Shown here: in pieces, positions 12,796 through 18,624 of the stretch
Layout of the letters: each line of letters starts with the position of its first letter
Numbering within the stretch: the first letter of the stretch is position 1
Source of the DNA: Sphingomonas sediminicola
GTDB lineage: Bacteria; Pseudomonadota; Alphaproteobacteria; Sphingomonadales; Sphingomonadaceae
Length of the DNA: 64,000 nt
Assembly (NCBI RefSeq): GCF_014489515.1
Contig: NZ_CP060782.1
Coordinates: 1,302,001 to 1,366,000 of the forward strand
Direction: 5' to 3'
Notes under the pieces: model-generated
Databases searched by the model: none
Seen by the model: the letters and a program-made list of their open reading frames with translations, nothing else
Told to the model about the DNA's origin: nothing
Made by a program: the position numbers and the translations under genes

Positions 12796-13839
12796 TCAGG
12801 CGGTGTCGGTTTCCAGCAGCTTGTGGCGCTTCAGAGCGTGGCGAAGCTGGTCGTAGCTGAGATTGAGCGCGGTCGCGGTTGCGCGCTGGTTGAATCGGTT
12901 CGCCGCGAGCGCGTTCTGGAGAAGCGCTCGCTCATAGTCTGAAACCGCCGCACGGAAGTCGCTGGTCGATGTCGGAGGAGCGACCGGGGACGCGGCCTCC
13001 GATGCTTCGATCTCGGACTCCGGCTCGACCTGCGCGCGAGGCTGCGAAGTCGTTGCCTGCGGCGCCCAGGGCGAATGGAACGGGTCGAACTGGATGGCCT
13101 CGACCGGCCGTTCCGGATCCTCCCATCGGTAGACAGCACGTTCCACTACGTTCTTGAGTTCGCGAATATTTCCGGGCCAGGAATAGCCCTCGAGCTCTCC
13201 AACCGCGGTCGTGGAGAAACCGGGCCAGTTCGGCCAGTCCAGCTCGACGGCCATGCGGCGACCGAAATGATCGGCCAGCAATGGAATGTCGCCGGTCCGC
13301 GCACGAAGCGGGGGCAAGGTTACGACCTCAAAGGACAGCCGGTCGAGCAGGTCGGCGCGGAACCTGCCCTTCTCGACCTCGGCTGGAAGACTAGCATTGG
13401 TCGCCGCGACGATGCGGACGTCTACGTCGATCGGCTTGGACGCGCCAATCCGGGTGATTTCGCCATATTCCACCGCGCGGAGGAGACGATCCTGCGCCGG
13501 CATCGAAAGCGTACCAAGCTCATCGAGGAACAAGGTCCCGCCATCCGCTTCCTCAAAGCGGCCGTGCCGGGTCTTCGACGCACCGGTGAAGCTTCCGGCT
13601 TCGTGTCCGAACAACTCCGCCTCGATCAGGGTTTCGGGAAGCGCGGCGCAGTTCATCACGATCAGAGGCGCGGCCCAGCGGCCGGACAAATGGTGCAGAC
13701 GTTCTGCGATCAATTCCTTGCCGGTGCCGCGTTCGCCGATCACAAGGACAGGGCGATTGAGCGGCGCCGCGCGGCTCGCGCGCTCGACCGCGTCGAGAAA
13801 GGCGAGGCTTTGCCCGACGAATTGATTTGTCCGCTCCAT
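12796..13839 (-). CDS. pspF: Sigma-54 activator of the phage-shock operon
   Basis: Bacterial enhancer-binding protein that drives the sigma-54-dependent psp promoter and is held inactive by PspA. The 347-aa protein begins directly with the AAA+ domain; there is no receiver, which is typical of PspF. Motifs: Walker A 'GERGTGKELIAERLHH' (residue 34), sigma-54-contact loop 'GSFTGA' (a Ser variant of GAFTGA), Walker B 'GGTLFLDELG' and arginine-finger region 'FRADLLDRLSFEVVTLPPLR'. A Pro/Ser/Glu-rich linker leads to a Fis-type helix-turn-helix at the C-terminus (RATATALNLSYDQLRHALKR). It is divergent from pspA, with a sigma-54 promoter between them. Confidence 0.94.
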   Translation of the reverse strand: MERTNQFVGQSLAFLDAVERASRAAPLNRPVLVIGERGTGKELIAERLHHLSGRWAAPLIVMNCAALPETLIEAELFGHEAGSFTGASKTRHGRFEEADGGTLFLDELGTLSMPAQDRLLRAVEYGEITRIGASKPIDVDVRIVAATNASLPAEVEKGRFRADLLDRLSFEVVTLPPLRARTGDIPLLADHFGRRMAVELDWPNWPGFSTTAVGELEGYSWPGNIRELKNVVERAVYRWEDPERPVEAIQFDPFHSPWAPQATTSQPRAQVEPESEIEASEAASPVAPPTSTSDFRAAVSDYERALLQNALAANRFNQRATATALNLSYDQLRHALKRHKLLETDTA

Positions 13840-13943: not shown

Positions 13944-13959
13944 TGGCACGAACCTTGTA
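13944..13959 (+). promoter_or_regulatory. Sigma-54 promoter of the psp operon
   Basis: TGGCACG (13944-13950), four bases, then TTGTA (13955-13959) matches the -24/-12 consensus TGGCACG-N4-TTGCA/T with one deviation (T for C in the -12 element). It faces pspA, whose ATG is 45 bases downstream. Together with the adjacent divergent pspF this fixes the control of the operon. Confidence 0.8.
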
Positions 13960-14003: not shown

Positions 14004-14672
14004 ATGGGTATCTTCTCTCGAACGAGGGACATCTTCGCGGCGAACATGACGGAGCTCCTCGACCGGTCAGAAGACCCGGCGAAGATGATCCGCATGATCA
14101 TTCTCGAGATGGAAGAGACGTTGGTGGAAGTGCGGGCTAGCGCCGCGCGCTCGATTGCCGACGGGAAGGAAATGCGCCGGGCGCTCAAGCGCCTCGAAGA
14201 TCTTCAATCGAGCTGGACCGAGAAGGCCGAGCTCGCGCTGAGCAAGGACCGAGAGGACCTGGCCAAGGCGGCGCTAATAGAGCGCCAAAAGGCCACCGAC
14301 ATGGCCGAGGGCCTTCGCGCCGAGATCGACCAGATCGACGAGACGCTGAAGACCTACGAAGCCGATATCTCCAAACTGCAGGGCAAGCTGCGCGAGGCTC
14401 GCGCCCGCCAGAATGCTATTGCGGCGCGGCTGGAAAGCGCGGTCACTCGCGCGAAGGCTCGCGAGATCCTTCACGGAGGGCGTACCGAAGACGCCTTCTC
14501 CAAGTTCGATGTTCTGGAGCGCCGCGCCGACTTTGCCGAAGGGCGTGCGGACGCGCTCGGAATGACCGGGCCGAAGAGCCTCGAAGAAGAGATTGCAGAG
14601 CTGCAGGCGTCCGAAAAGGTCGACGCCGAACTGGAAGCCATGAAGGCCGCGCTGAAGCGCAAAGGGGATTAG
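14004..14672 (+). CDS. pspA: Phage shock protein A
   Basis: A 222-aa ESCRT-III/IM30-family protein, almost wholly helical coiled coil, that binds stressed inner membrane and represses PspF. The N-terminal amphipathic segment 'MGIFSRTRDIFAANMTELLD' and 'PAKMIRMIILEMEETLVEVR' are typical. The ATG at 14004 fits this N-terminus; the longer open frame upstream crosses the promoter and is not coding. It is followed after 3 bases by pspB. It is first in an operon that seems to run through five further small membrane-protein genes. Confidence 0.96.
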   Translation: MGIFSRTRDIFAANMTELLDRSEDPAKMIRMIILEMEETLVEVRASAARSIADGKEMRRALKRLEDLQSSWTEKAELALSKDREDLAKAALIERQKATDMAEGLRAEIDQIDETLKTYEADISKLQGKLREARARQNAIAARLESAVTRAKAREILHGGRTEDAFSKFDVLERRADFAEGRADALGMTGPKSLEEEIAELQASEKVDAELEAMKAALKRKGD

Positions 14673-14675
14673 AAT

Positions 14676-14984
14676 ATGGAGGACGTGCTTATTCCTGTAC
14701 TGGTCGTCGGAATCCTTTTCCTGGGACTGCCGTGGCTGGTGTTTCACTACGTCACGAAGTGGAAGCAGACGGCGACCATCACCGGCGCCGACGAAAAATT
14801 GCTTGACGAGTTGTATGATCTCGCCCGCAGGCTCGACGATCGCCTCTGCTCGATCGAGCGCATCATGACCGCCGAAAATCCGAACTGGAGGCAGCAGTGC
14901 CTGCCCGACGCCACGGACCGCATCGCCGAAGAGCTGAGCGAAGTTCGCAGCCGCGGCCGCTCGCGCGTCCGGACCGGAGAATGA
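14676..14984 (+). CDS. pspB: Phage shock protein B
   Basis: A 102-aa inner-membrane protein with one N-terminal helix (VLIPVLVVGILFLGLPWLVFHYVTKW) and a cytoplasmic coiled coil with 'LARRLDDRLCSIERIMTAENPNWR', which aligns by eye with the C-terminus of E. coli PspB. It is about 25 residues longer than the E. coli protein, with an Arg-rich tail. It works with PspC to sense membrane stress and relieve PspA inhibition of PspF. The stop overlaps the ATG of pspC (ATGA). Confidence 0.92.
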   Translation: MEDVLIPVLVVGILFLGLPWLVFHYVTKWKQTATITGADEKLLDELYDLARRLDDRLCSIERIMTAENPNWRQQCLPDATDRIAEELSEVRSRGRSRVRTGE

Positions 14985-15376
14985 CCATGGCCTATCAGCC
15001 ACCCAGCCGCACCCGCTTCTACCGGGACAAGCGCAACGGCAAGATCATGGGGATCTGCGCCGGACTCGCGGACTACACTGGTTTCGACGTGACCCTCGTC
15101 CGGATCACGATGATCGCGGCAGTGTTCCTGAGCAGCGGCTCCATCCTCCCGGTCTATTTCATCGCCGGATGGGTCGCGCCCGACAGGCCGCGCGAGCTTG
15201 AGGGGACGGACACGGAGACGCGCGAGTTCTGGCAGTCGGTTCGCCGGTCCCCAACCCGAACCGCTCGGGACATTCGGTTGCGGCTGAAAGACATCGATCG
15301 CCGGCTCGGTGATGTCGAGAGCTATGTGACGACCGAGAACCGCTCCCTCGCCCGCGAGATCGAGCAGCTTCGATAA
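14981..15376 (+). CDS. pspC: Phage shock protein C
   Basis: A 131-aa protein with the PspC domain: 'FYRDKRNGKIMGICAGLADYTGFDVTLVRI' then a membrane helix 'MIAAVFLSSGSILPVYFIAGWV'. Unlike short PspC proteins it carries a C-terminal coiled coil, 'RLKDIDRRLGDVESYVTT' followed by 'LAREIEQLR', which resembles the tails of PspB and of the five genes downstream. The start may be ATG 14981 (overlapping the pspB stop) or ATG 14987. Confidence 0.92.
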   Translation: MTMAYQPPSRTRFYRDKRNGKIMGICAGLADYTGFDVTLVRITMIAAVFLSSGSILPVYFIAGWVAPDRPRELEGTDTETREFWQSVRRSPTRTARDIRLRLKDIDRRLGDVESYVTTENRSLAREIEQLR

Positions 15377-15400
15377 CAATTCCAAGCGGAGGGTGAGTCC

Positions 15401-15655
15401 ATGAACTTTGCGCCCCTGATCCCGATTGCCGGCATAACGGCCGGCGTCGCCATCATGTGGATCTGCTATAAGGTCATGGAGCTTCGTGTGATCGGGCGGA
15501 AAGCTCTGGAAGAGGCCGCTCGAGAATCCGCAGAGAAGAAGAAGCTCGAAGCGAGGCTTGCGGTGCTCGAACGGATCGTCACCGATCGCGGAATCCAGAC
15601 AGCCGAGCAGATCGACGCGCTTCTTGAGCGACAACCGACCCGCATCGAATCCTGA
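15401..15655 (+). CDS. PspB-like small membrane protein 1 of 5
   Basis: An 84-aa protein with an N-terminal membrane helix (IPIAGITAGVAIMWICYKVM), a charged helical linker (KALEEAARESAEKKKLEA) and the module 'RLAVLERIVTDRGIQTAEQI' followed by DALLERQ. The last part resembles the C-terminus of PspB. It lies 24 bases after pspC and 2 bases before the next gene. The exact function is unknown; assembly with PspB/PspC or PspA is inferred from the shared coiled coil and the operon. Confidence 0.85.
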   Translation: MNFAPLIPIAGITAGVAIMWICYKVMELRVIGRKALEEAARESAEKKKLEARLAVLERIVTDRGIQTAEQIDALLERQPTRIES

Positions 15656-15657
15656 CC

Positions 15658-15918
15658 ATGTTCTGGATGCTCATCTTCTCGCTCGCGTTGGCCTTCATCG
15701 TTGCCGGCGTGGTCCTGAACCTGCTGAAGGTACAGGCCGGCTTCACGGCACCGGACCAGGCCGAGCGACTGTCCGAACGAGAGATGGATGCGATCCGGGC
15801 AGAAAACGTTGAGCTGAAACATCGCATTGCCGAACTGACCGAGCGCCTGACCGTCCTCGAGCGGATCGCGACAGATCCGGCCGAACGCGTCTCCCGTGAG
15901 ATCGAAGAACTACGCTGA
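15658..15918 (+). CDS. PspB-like small membrane protein 2 of 5
   Basis: An 86-aa protein: membrane helix 'MLIFSLALAFIVAGVVLNLL', a linker, then a heptad-rich stretch (ENVELKHRIAELTERL) leading into 'TVLERIATDPAERVSREIEE' and LR at the C-terminus. The same order of elements is found in its four neighbours, although the membrane helices differ strongly. That argues for old duplications rather than recent copying. Confidence 0.85.
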   Translation: MFWMLIFSLALAFIVAGVVLNLLKVQAGFTAPDQAERLSEREMDAIRAENVELKHRIAELTERLTVLERIATDPAERVSREIEELR

Positions 15919-15930
15919 GGATATTGAGCC

Positions 15931-16266
15931 ATGGATTCCGAAGTTCTGAGCCTTCTTGCAAACCTGTTCCCGATGATCGCGGTGATCGTGGCAGTCAGCG
16001 TCGGAGGCTGGGTGTTCACCACCTGGCTGAGAATCAAGAACGGCTATCCGCTGGAAACGTCCTGGGGAACGCCGCTGCATCCCTCGAACAGCCGCGAGCA
16101 TGCTGAGCGCATCAAGTTGCTCACGAGTGAAAACGCCCAGCTTCGGGCCGAGCTCGGGTCCATCAAGGATCGGCTGGAGACGGTCGAGCGGATCGTGACC
16201 GACCAGCCGCATCGCCTCGCCCGCGAAATCGACGCGCTGGCGATCGACAAGGGGGGTAACGCCTGA
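15931..16266 (+). CDS. PspB-like small membrane protein 3 of 5
   Basis: A 111-aa protein, the longest of the set. The membrane helix 'LFPMIAVIVAVSVGGWVFTTW' is followed by a loop with Pro/Gly (NGYPLETSWGTPLHPSNSRE), then a coiled coil 'LLTSENAQLRAELGSIKDRL' and the module 'ETVERIVTDQPHRLAREIDA'. The TGA overlaps the start of the next gene by 1 base. The loop could be a flexible spacer or a recognition segment, absent from the other four. Confidence 0.85.
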   Translation: MDSEVLSLLANLFPMIAVIVAVSVGGWVFTTWLRIKNGYPLETSWGTPLHPSNSREHAERIKLLTSENAQLRAELGSIKDRLETVERIVTDQPHRLAREIDALAIDKGGNA

Positions 16267-16550
16267 TGGGACCGGGAGAAGTCATAAGCCTTCTGATCGT
16301 CGTCCTCATTCCGACGATTTTCCTGTCTTACATGGCACGGCGCTTCTTCACGTTCCGTGAGAAGCAGCTCGATGCCCAAACCAGCCTTGCAGCCGAGAAG
16401 GCGGCCCAATATGCCGCGAACAACGCCGAGCTGGAGGCGCGACTCCGCGTGCTGGAGCAGATAGTCACGGATGGCGGCCTGCAAACGGCCGCGCAGATCG
16501 AAGCTCTTCGCGAGAAGCCTCGGCTGGAACATGGAGACAAGGCTCAATGA
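16266..16550 (+). CDS. PspB-like small membrane protein 4 of 5
   Basis: A 94-aa protein: membrane helix 'VISLLIVVLIPTIFLSYMA', a basic boundary (RRFFTFREKQ), an Ala-rich coiled coil (LAAEKAAQYAANNAELEARL) and the module 'RVLEQIVTDGGLQTAAQIEA'. Its module is closest to that of member 1 (both have 'TDxGxQTAxQIxAL'), so those two may descend from one duplication. It overlaps the next start by 4 bases (ATGA). Confidence 0.85.
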   Translation: MGPGEVISLLIVVLIPTIFLSYMARRFFTFREKQLDAQTSLAAEKAAQYAANNAELEARLRVLEQIVTDGGLQTAAQIEALREKPRLEHGDKAQ

Positions 16551-16789
16551 ACCCCTTCGAAATGGTCGCGGTCATCGTGGTTGCAGTGATGATCGCCTCG
16601 GTTCTGAGAGCGAAATACGGTCATGCGCAACGTGGCGAGGCGCAAATCGATCCACGCGAGCACGCCGAGAATTTGCGGCTGCGCGACGAGGTGAAGGACC
16701 TAAAGGAGCGCATCCAGGTGCTCGAGCGGATCACGATCGAGAAGGAAAACACCCTCTCGAAGCAGATCGAAGAGCTTCGCGACCGCTAG
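16547..16789 (+). CDS. PspB-like small membrane protein 5 of 5
   Basis: An 80-aa protein: membrane helix 'PFEMVAVIVVAVMIASVL', then a linker and a coiled coil 'ENLRLRDEVKDLKERIQVLE' running into 'RITIEKENTLSKQIEELRDR'. The module is the most diverged of the five (TIEKEN in place of TD). The gene closes the psp run; sufE begins 29 bases later. Confidence 0.83.
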   Translation: MNPFEMVAVIVVAVMIASVLRAKYGHAQRGEAQIDPREHAENLRLRDEVKDLKERIQVLERITIEKENTLSKQIEELRDR

Positions 16790-16818: not shown

Positions 16819-17238
16819 GTGGTGACCGGCCTGCCCTCACTCCAAGACATCCTTGACGAGTATGAACTGCTCGAAGGCGAGGATCGTTACCGGTTGCTCA
16901 TCGATCTCGGGCGCGAGCTTGACCCGATGCCTGAGGCGTTGAAGACCGACGCGACCAAGGTCCGCGGATGCTCTGCTTCGGTCTGGGTCTACCCGACGAC
17001 CACGGAAAACGGGCGGTTGCATTTCCTTGCGGACAGCAATGCCGCGATCACCAAGGGCATTGTCGCGCTGATTCTCTCGGCTGTGCAGGACAAGCCAGCC
17101 GAGGAAGTGGCTGCGATGGATGTCACCGAAGCCCTGGCGCCGTTCGAGCTTCGCAAGCATCTGAGCGCGAACCGCACTCAGGGCGTCCCAAACATGATCG
17201 CGCTGATCCGGGAAACCGCCCAGCGGCTCGCCGCATGA
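16819..17238 (+). CDS. sufE: SufE family sulfur acceptor
   Basis: Accepts persulfide sulfur from the cysteine desulfurase SufS for Fe-S cluster assembly in the cytoplasm. The 139-aa protein shows 'DRYRLLIDLGREL', the active cysteine in 'KVRGCSASVWVYP' (near residue 53) and 'ANRTQGVPNMIALI' at the C-terminus. The start is one of two tandem GTG codons (16819/16822). No other suf genes are in the window. The stop overlaps the next start (ATGA). Confidence 0.93.
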   Translation: MVTGLPSLQDILDEYELLEGEDRYRLLIDLGRELDPMPEALKTDATKVRGCSASVWVYPTTTENGRLHFLADSNAAITKGIVALILSAVQDKPAEEVAAMDVTEALAPFELRKHLSANRTQGVPNMIALIRETAQRLAA

Positions 17239-18203: not shown

Positions 18204-18254
18204 CTCCACTCCACCTAATGGCGAGCGGAGACGTTCGCCAGTCAGTCAGATATC

Positions 18255-18624
18255 GCCAGAGGGCCTGTAAGCCGGGTTCTGTCCAGCGCATTGCTGCGCC
18301 TGTGCGGCCATTCCTCTAGGAGACGGATTACTCCGTCCCTCAAGCAACCAACCCGGGCGACGAGCCGGAACAAGCTCATATGCCGCCCTATTCGGTCTTG
18401 CACCCGGTGGGGTTTTCCGTGCCGGTGACGTTGCCGCCCCGCGGTGCGCTCTTGCCGCACCCTTTCGACCTTACCCGCCCAAGGACGAGCGGTATGCTTT
18501 CTGTGGCACTTTCCCTGAGCCCTGCCGAAGCATGACCCGCCGGGCGTTACCCGGCACCGTTGTTCCGTGGAGCCCGGACTTTCCTCGTGTCTCTTGCGAA
18601 ACCGCGGCCGCCTGGCCCTCTGGC
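18255..18624 (-). ncRNA. rnpB: RNase P RNA, bacterial type A
   Basis: Catalytic RNA that trims the 5' leader of pre-tRNAs. On the minus strand the conserved P4 strand and flank 'GAGGAAAGTCCGGGCTCC' lies near 18590-18565, and the 3' element 'CAGAACCCGGCTTACAGG' lies near 18281-18264. Helix P1 is visible at the ends: GCCAGAGGGCC at the 5' end pairs perfectly with GGCCCTCTGGC at the 3' end (18255-18265). These define the limits, about 370 nt. The 5' end is only 14 bases beyond the amidase stop codon, so its promoter must lie within the amidase gene, or the RNA is cut from a longer transcript. Confidence 0.95.

Follow-up and report, generated by a model that had tools for sequence, protein, structure and literature searches.

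Why does the psp operon of Sphingomonas sediminicola continue beyond pspC? In the stretch of DNA analysed here (the window: 64,000 nucleotides of contig NZ_CP060782.1, positions 1,302,001 to 1,366,000, from a genome of 2.76 Mb), pspA, pspB and pspC are followed by five small genes, in the following termed O1 to O5. A first-pass annotation of the window had described these genes as encoding proteins of 80–111 amino acids, and their coordinates and lengths proved correct (Table 1). All five products display a single N-terminal membrane helix, as judged by hydropathy, and a common C-terminal module. We regard it as fairly probable that O1 to O5 encode accessory components of the Psp envelope-stress system that sit in the membrane and would act through this tail.

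Comparable arrays occur throughout the bacterial family of the host (Sphingomonadaceae in the wide sense), of which 149 genomes were sampled. A PspC match is present in 139 of these, above cut-off in 137, and the pspC locus was read in all 137 (the window and 136 further stretches) and at three second loci, giving 140 loci. Array open reading frames (ORFs) were collected from these loci by an iterated module profile, which yielded 594 ORFs in 139 of the 140 loci, all ending between the stop of pspC and the stop of sufE wherever sufE was found. An array of one to eight genes is present in 136 of the 137 primary loci. Numbers of array genes are distributed as follows: none in 1 locus, one in 6, two in 7, three in 19, four in 44, five in 34, six in 16, seven in 8 and eight in 2; early contig ends in some loci make these counts lower bounds. 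Four genomes of the window's genus carry 3 to 6 array genes. A set of named loci (the best 80 of at least 465 confirmed for class c, as defined below, and hence biased towards that class) holds 1 to 9 module genes; Erythrobacter longus (L257) has 8 of them and Croceibacterium salegens (L212) has 9. The earlier interpretation thus stands with regard to a conserved set in related genomes. The variable gene number, which ranges from none to 8 over the 140 loci and reaches 9 among the named ones, speaks against one fixed stoichiometry across the family.

Clustering of the 594 ORFs resulted in four main classes, a (209 ORFs), b (157), c (124) and d (102), and one additional pair (2). Their usual order is (a/b)n-d-c-sufE. 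Class c is the last array gene in 124 of 124 loci (and the only one in five), and class d takes the penultimate place in 96 of 102 cases and the final one in 6. The arrangement b-a-d-c occurs most often (17 loci), followed by b-a-a-b-d-c and a-a-b-d-c (9 loci each); the window reads b-a-a-b-d by clustering. The start of 553 of the 594 ORFs lies at most 50 bases from the preceding stop, a count that is affected by the choice of starts near this stop in overlong frames. Tight spacing together with conserved order suggests co-transcription of the array with the psp genes, pspA included. A profile of classes a, b and d matches 136 of the 139 family genomes with PspC versus 1 of the 10 without (G082, 66% complete), where the former number may be slightly high since the profile weakly catches PspC itself (1 of 6 matches in the window's genome). 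Class c is found in 127 of 139 versus 1 of 10. Being encoded with pspF-pspABC and co-occurring with pspC, the array fits the Psp system by these two measures.

The C-terminal module shared with PspB and PspC, which the first-pass annotation had pointed out, is real. Residues M1, R56 and E61 are invariant across the seven proteins (PspB, PspC and O1 to O5), and a profile built from the seven retrieves from the whole genome, up to an E-value of 10, nothing besides them except a pspC-like gene that belongs to a second psp locus. Between paralogues of one locus (classes a, b and d; 695 pairs; module anchored in 592 of 594 ORFs), the 31-residue module is 42% identical as compared to 9% when shuffled, whereas the membrane helices are 24% identical, which equals the 24% of shuffled helices. 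Orthologues across 15 loci of the order b-a-a-b-d-c display helix identities of 0.32–0.63 (shuffled 0.24–0.29) and module identities of 0.56–0.92. Hence, the earlier statement that helices and linkers differ strongly applies to paralogues and less so to orthologues. Following the helix, 143 of the 209 class a proteins carry a motif [HN]GYxL, as do 16 of 157 in class b, whereas it is present in 0 of 124 in class c and 0 of 102 in class d; the G and Y that appear invariant in alignment A5 are partly so by construction, as only sequences with the class a motif entered this alignment (115 of the 122 named class a ORFs qualify). The class c proteins terminate in RIE-ADLKERIRKLEAIAAGVDL, which is strongly conserved (15-protein alignment). 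A strongly hydrophobic stretch is present in 575 of the 594 ORFs, and charge favours a C-terminus on the inside in 524 (34 equal, 16 opposite, 20 without a called helix). Judged from charge, the array proteins would be single-pass proteins with the N-terminus outside and the C-terminus inside. At one locus (L386:3896-4416), two adjacent class d genes encode near-identical tails but markedly dissimilar membrane helices, a pattern that looks like a recent exchange of one part or the other.

From which Psp protein does this tail derive its likeness? Profile-profile comparison, with reversed alignments as control, returned probabilities of 96, 90 and 91 for classes a, b and d versus the PspC tail (reversed: 28, 18 and 2), and of 95, 89 and 32 versus PspB (reversed: 2, 19 and 2); the aligned columns number 36–43 for the PspC tail versus 24–30 for PspB. 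With single sequences at an E-value of 1e-3, the PspC-tail profile matches 163 of 209 class a, 36 of 157 class b, 13 of 102 class d and 0 of 124 class c proteins, and the PspB profile 9, 7, 4 and 0, respectively, while reversed sequences gave no matches to either profile at this threshold. Because the PspC-tail profile recovers far more members, the reading that all array proteins are plain PspB paralogues had to be narrowed (in class a, 163 versus 9 of 209). In a sample of 38 proteins of classes a, b and d, the NCBIfam families most matched at an E-value of 0.01 were PspC (8 of 38) and PspB (6 of 38), all below cut-offs. On these profile comparisons, the tails of classes a, b and d are related to the C-terminal tail of PspC and are partly resembled by PspB too. 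The likeness to PspB proposed in the first-pass annotation is therefore retained for classes a and b, weak for class d and absent in class c, with the PspC tail matching a, b and d equally well or better.

Intermediate forms exist outside the family. An extra gene of a psp operon (L342:5458-5676) is related to PspB at an E-value of 2.9e-10, another (L342:5711-5944) to the PspC tail at 5.6e-7, both below cut-off; in this genome and a second one (L343), both from another family of the host's bacterial class, the psp operon continues with one PspC-tail gene and one PspB-tail gene. A protein from another bacterial class of the same phylum (L375) matches the models of both PspB (2.2e-10) and PspC (3.2e-6), again below cut-offs. 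Among solved structures, no convincing sequence relative of PspB or PspC of the window was found (best E-values 0.23 and 0.59).

Are the array members distinct genes or repeated copies? In a tree of the 15 named b-a-a-b-d-c loci (built rapidly from few columns, with long branches flagged), positions b1, b4, d5 and c6 form one group each (support 97, 40, 96 and 99), and positions a2 and a3 need four label changes each. All labels together require 8 changes as compared to a shuffled mean of 58.8, and a value as low was reached in 0 of 200 shuffles. Since four of six positions are monophyletic, most array members look like old, separate genes, and a recent burst of duplication as the sole origin is disfavoured by this tree. 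For the window the picture is mixed: O3 groups with a3, O4 is nearest to b1 rows despite standing at position 4, and O2 is nearest to O5 and d5, with O1 and O2 on long branches. The class of O2 is thus unsure. Positions correspond well among the 15 loci, but the window fits this scheme only in part. Median ratios of nonsynonymous to synonymous substitution rates (dN/dS; 32 same-genus pairs) are 0.217, 0.193, 0.213 and 0.164 for classes a, b, c and d, with single values up to 0.58, as compared to 0.162 for PspA, 0.166 for PspB and 0.135 for PspC; array pairs with dN of at least 0.35 were dropped, which lowers the array values. The array genes are under purifying selection.

These data may suggest how the array acts. 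The introduction of one paper states that the PspC tail binds PspA (PMC5596341), and in passages of another the PspC of E. coli needs its C-terminal part with a leucine zipper for contact with PspA (PMC3068692). Each array protein would carry a cytoplasmic helical tail of PspC type on its own membrane helix, and in the likeliest mechanism array proteins would associate with PspB and PspC into mixed assemblies via these tails. If PspA binding has been kept, the tails would present further or competing sites for PspA; binding to PspA, PspB or PspC, like the idea of mixed assemblies and of a graded platform for PspA, is something we infer from the sequences. Because the membrane helix is conserved position by position, the individual proteins may respond to different membrane conditions or partners. 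Extended to a multi-channel membrane sensor of up to eight or nine single-pass proteins, with each helix tuned separately and all competing with PspC for PspA via the shared tail, this proposal is a tentative one in which we place limited confidence.

Two other roles may be considered within the Psp system. The array proteins could be interchangeable anchors that merely multiply docking sites for PspA, a matter of dosage or scaffolding without separate signals. The one shared tail is in line with this idea, as is the gene number of 0 to 8 in the surveyed loci and 3 to 6 within the window's genus. Positional orthology and position-specific conservation of helices in the 15 loci argue for members that are not interchangeable, and we consider pure dosage rather unlikely. 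Alternatively, the array proteins may act as silencers which, like PspB in the off state, bind the PspC tail, keep it from PspA and thereby set a threshold. Classes a and b resemble PspB too; according to the title of a paper cited in PMC5596341, cytoplasmic contacts between PspB and PspC silence the response, and PspB counteracts one toxic effect of PspC in passages of PMC3068692. However, in a, b and d the stretch of tail that resembles the PspC tail is longer than the one that resembles PspB, which makes binding of PspA as likely as binding of PspC, and a silencing role appears doubtful to us.

Explanations that detach the array from the Psp system, or from function, fare worse. Generic membrane-anchored coiled coils of the FtsB/DivIC kind, serving another purpose, could resemble the Psp tails by chance. 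Single matches to FtsB, DivIC and other coiled-coil families do occur among the 38 sampled members, and a match to PF08954 (E-value 3.4e-6) even beats the best Pfam match to PspB in the sample (0.00093). On the other hand, PspC and PspB are the most matched families in NCBIfam, and PspB is so in Pfam (3 of 38), reversed-sequence controls fail to match, and the array is nearly tied to the presence of pspC, so that chance resemblance seems quite improbable. Neutral amplification, meaning tandem copies without lasting function, would accommodate copy numbers that vary between close relatives and the recent-looking d-d pair with near-identical tails in L386, but it is very hard to reconcile with an order that recurs over the family, with old positional orthologues and with dN/dS near 0.2 (a value favoured downwards by the dropping of divergent pairs).

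The reading of O1 to O5 as accessory Psp proteins acting through a PspC-type tail has to be weighed against a number of observations that count against it. None of the five passes a curated cut-off in Pfam or NCBIfam, be it for PspB, PspC or another family; O5, the best PspB scorer among them, reaches 23.0 of 51.7 bits for TIGR02976 and 19.6 of 25.6 bits for PF06667. Among PspC-bearing genomes, 3 of 139 (G049, G075 and G097) are without a match to the a/b/d profile and 12 of 139 are without class c. Class c compares to PspB at a probability of 2 and to the PspC tail at below 1; its sole links to the array are with class b (95.5), class a (88.6) and class d (78.2). A direct comparison of PspB with the PspC tail of family genomes gives a probability of 3. 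The structure model of O3 has a mean predicted local distance difference test score of 80 and a predicted template modelling score of 0.35, and displays merely two helices; that of the window's PspC is poor (68). Passages of PMC3068692 place the C-terminal part of PspC putatively in the periplasm and allow for two topologies, describe PspB-PspC contact as independent of the leucine zippers, and note that direct contact between PspA and PspB was not detected. Class d also has relatives that lie apart from any psp gene: none was found within about 6 kb in sister families or another family of the bacterial class (L333–L336, L339), nor in the flanks of about 1.5 kb read in other bacterial classes. 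Hence, the link between tail and Psp is not universal.

Single-pass proteins that bear this tail but have no psp gene in the flanks read were seen in L333, L334, L335, L336, L339, L369, L372, L374, L377 and L378, suggesting that a lone tail protein is old or has widely moved; weak matches to the PspB or PspC models occur in L333, L335, L369, L374, L377 and L375, where none passes the NCBIfam cut-offs. Within the host's bacterial class (up to 13 candidates scored per genome, threshold 1e-4), the a/b/d profile has matches in 14 of 385 genomes, of which five belong to the host's family. Only one of the nine others (G329) is as strong as those of the family; in G412 and G478 the profile hit PspB itself, in G391 an extra gene within a psp operon, and in G336 and G206 longer frames with no psp genes nearby; the remaining three genomes are G155, G220 and G470. 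In the host's order 123 of 147 genomes match, with one or two matches in each of the listed sister-family genomes and up to eight in the host's family. A large expansion inside the psp operon was seen in the host's family only.

Class c is also found apart from the main array. A second locus of the order pspA2-pspC2-class c, in which pspB was not found, lies in the window's genome (L179, contig 1, about 377.6–379.1 kb). It holds, behind the second pspA and the second pspC and about 0.94 Mb away, the only class c match of this genome; the main array has none. The same trio, with pspB not found, is present in L382 and L383 (window's genus), in L177 and L178 (another genus) and in the named record L249, and within the window's genus it occurs in all three genomes where the place of class c was read (L179, L382 and L383). 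Other psp loci combine PspC-domain genes that lack the tail with tail-bearing single-pass proteins (L337, L338, L344, L385, L128, L145, L166 and L175). In the last four a tail-less PspC gene precedes a full pspC, and in L385 pspB was not found and the sole PspC is tail-less. Such loci are suggestive of a tail supplied in trans; since tail-less PspC may be common elsewhere, we put no weight on this idea.

The features of the locus are listed in Table 1. The genes from pspA through sufE are spaced by 3, -4, 24, 2, 12, -1, -4 and 29 bases. Matches to PspB below cut-off are found for O5 and O4 in Pfam and for O5 and O2 in NCBIfam. O2, O3 and O5 match the PspC model TIGR02978 below cut-off up to its C-terminal end, O1 has no NCBIfam match, and the PspC domain PF04024 gave no Pfam match in O1 to O5 up to an E-value of 10. 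The candidate sigma-54 box was scored against a simple consensus with 12 specified positions; scores of at least 10 of 12 occur in 13 of 134 loci versus 2 of 134 random windows, with pspA starts guessed by motif, a result which does not show family-wide conservation. RpoN was found in 148 of the 149 family genomes. As in the window, the array is usually bordered on its right by sufE, an iron-sulphur gene that was found in 122 of 140 loci. Further downstream, a bacterial RNase P RNA of class A (18252–18500, minus strand) runs off the end of the searched stretch.

Table 1. Features of the psp locus and its array (positions within the window).
Feature	Position	Strand	Basis
pspF, sigma-54 activator of the psp operon, divergent	12796..13839	-	TIGR02974, 482.4 bits (cut-off 443.55)
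Promoter-like box of sigma-54 type (-24/-12), TGGCACGAACCTTGTA	13944..13959	+	about 45 bases upstream of pspA; 11 of 12 specified positions
pspA	14004..14672	+	TIGR02977, 265.2 bits (cut-off 242.95)
pspB	14676..14984	+	TIGR02976, 76.2 bits (cut-off 51.7)
pspC	14981..15376 (alternative start 14987)	+	TIGR02978, 122.2 bits (cut-off 104)
O1, class b, 84 aa	15401..15655	+	clustering; long branch on tree
O2, class a by clustering (class unsure), 86 aa	15658..15918	+	TIGR02978 39-121, E-value 0.00048
O3, class a, 111 aa	15931..16266	+	NGYPLETSWG after membrane helix; TIGR02978 72-121, E-value 0.0018
O4, class b, 94 aa	16266..16550	+	clustering; PF06667, E-value 0.013
O5, class d, 80 aa	16547..16789	+	clustering; TIGR02976, E-value 7e-5, 23.0 bits (cut-off 51.7)
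sufE	16819..17238	+	PF02657, 121.6 bits (cut-off 27)

The array bears on the question of how PspB and PspC recognise membrane trouble. Across many genera, the host's family has retained one tail and, at conserved positions, combined it with differing helices, which provides a natural set of domain swaps for asking which part senses and which part signals. The array also lets one ask whether several inputs can drive PspA.

With regard to known systems, Ravi et al. (2024) mention "PspB duplicates" in the operon and a PspC fused to a divergent C-terminal PspB (PMC11237479). The likeness to the present array lies in the extra PspB genes of the operon and the PspB-like C-terminus of PspC; the difference is that the main-text passages contain no ordered array, classes or numbers, and no word starting with "sphingo" or "erythrobacter" occurs in the main text (PMC11237479). 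The first-pass annotation, which knew of no described function for such an array, was thus partly wrong, the "PspB duplicates" having been in print since 2024. No description of the ordered, class-resolved array was found in the open-licence literature. The protein AOL22920.1, an example of Ravi et al., may come from an Erythrobacter; if so, one case of the array was already seen there. PspD and PspG of enterobacteria are small extra membrane proteins of the Psp regulon, as the array proteins would be. Neither family is among the matches of O1 to O5 up to an E-value of 10 in Pfam and NCBIfam, where the presence of both families in the libraries was not checked. In Zymomonas mobilis, pspA, pspB and pspC rise under ethanol, and passages of this 2012 study mention a hypothetical gene in the psp regulon (PMC3495753). 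The array proteins are like PspB (TIGR02976, PF06667) in operon, size, one N-terminal membrane helix and a predicted helical C-terminal part, with 24–30 aligned columns for classes a and b. They differ from it in scoring under both cut-offs, in a tail that continues as in PspC and in class-specific motifs; relatedness to PspB is weak in class d and undetected in class c. Finally, the module of classes a, b and d is like the C-terminal tail of PspC (TIGR02978, about positions 72–121) over 36–43 columns; in contrast to PspC, the array proteins carry no PspC domain (PF04024) and have a single, unrelated membrane helix in front of this tail.

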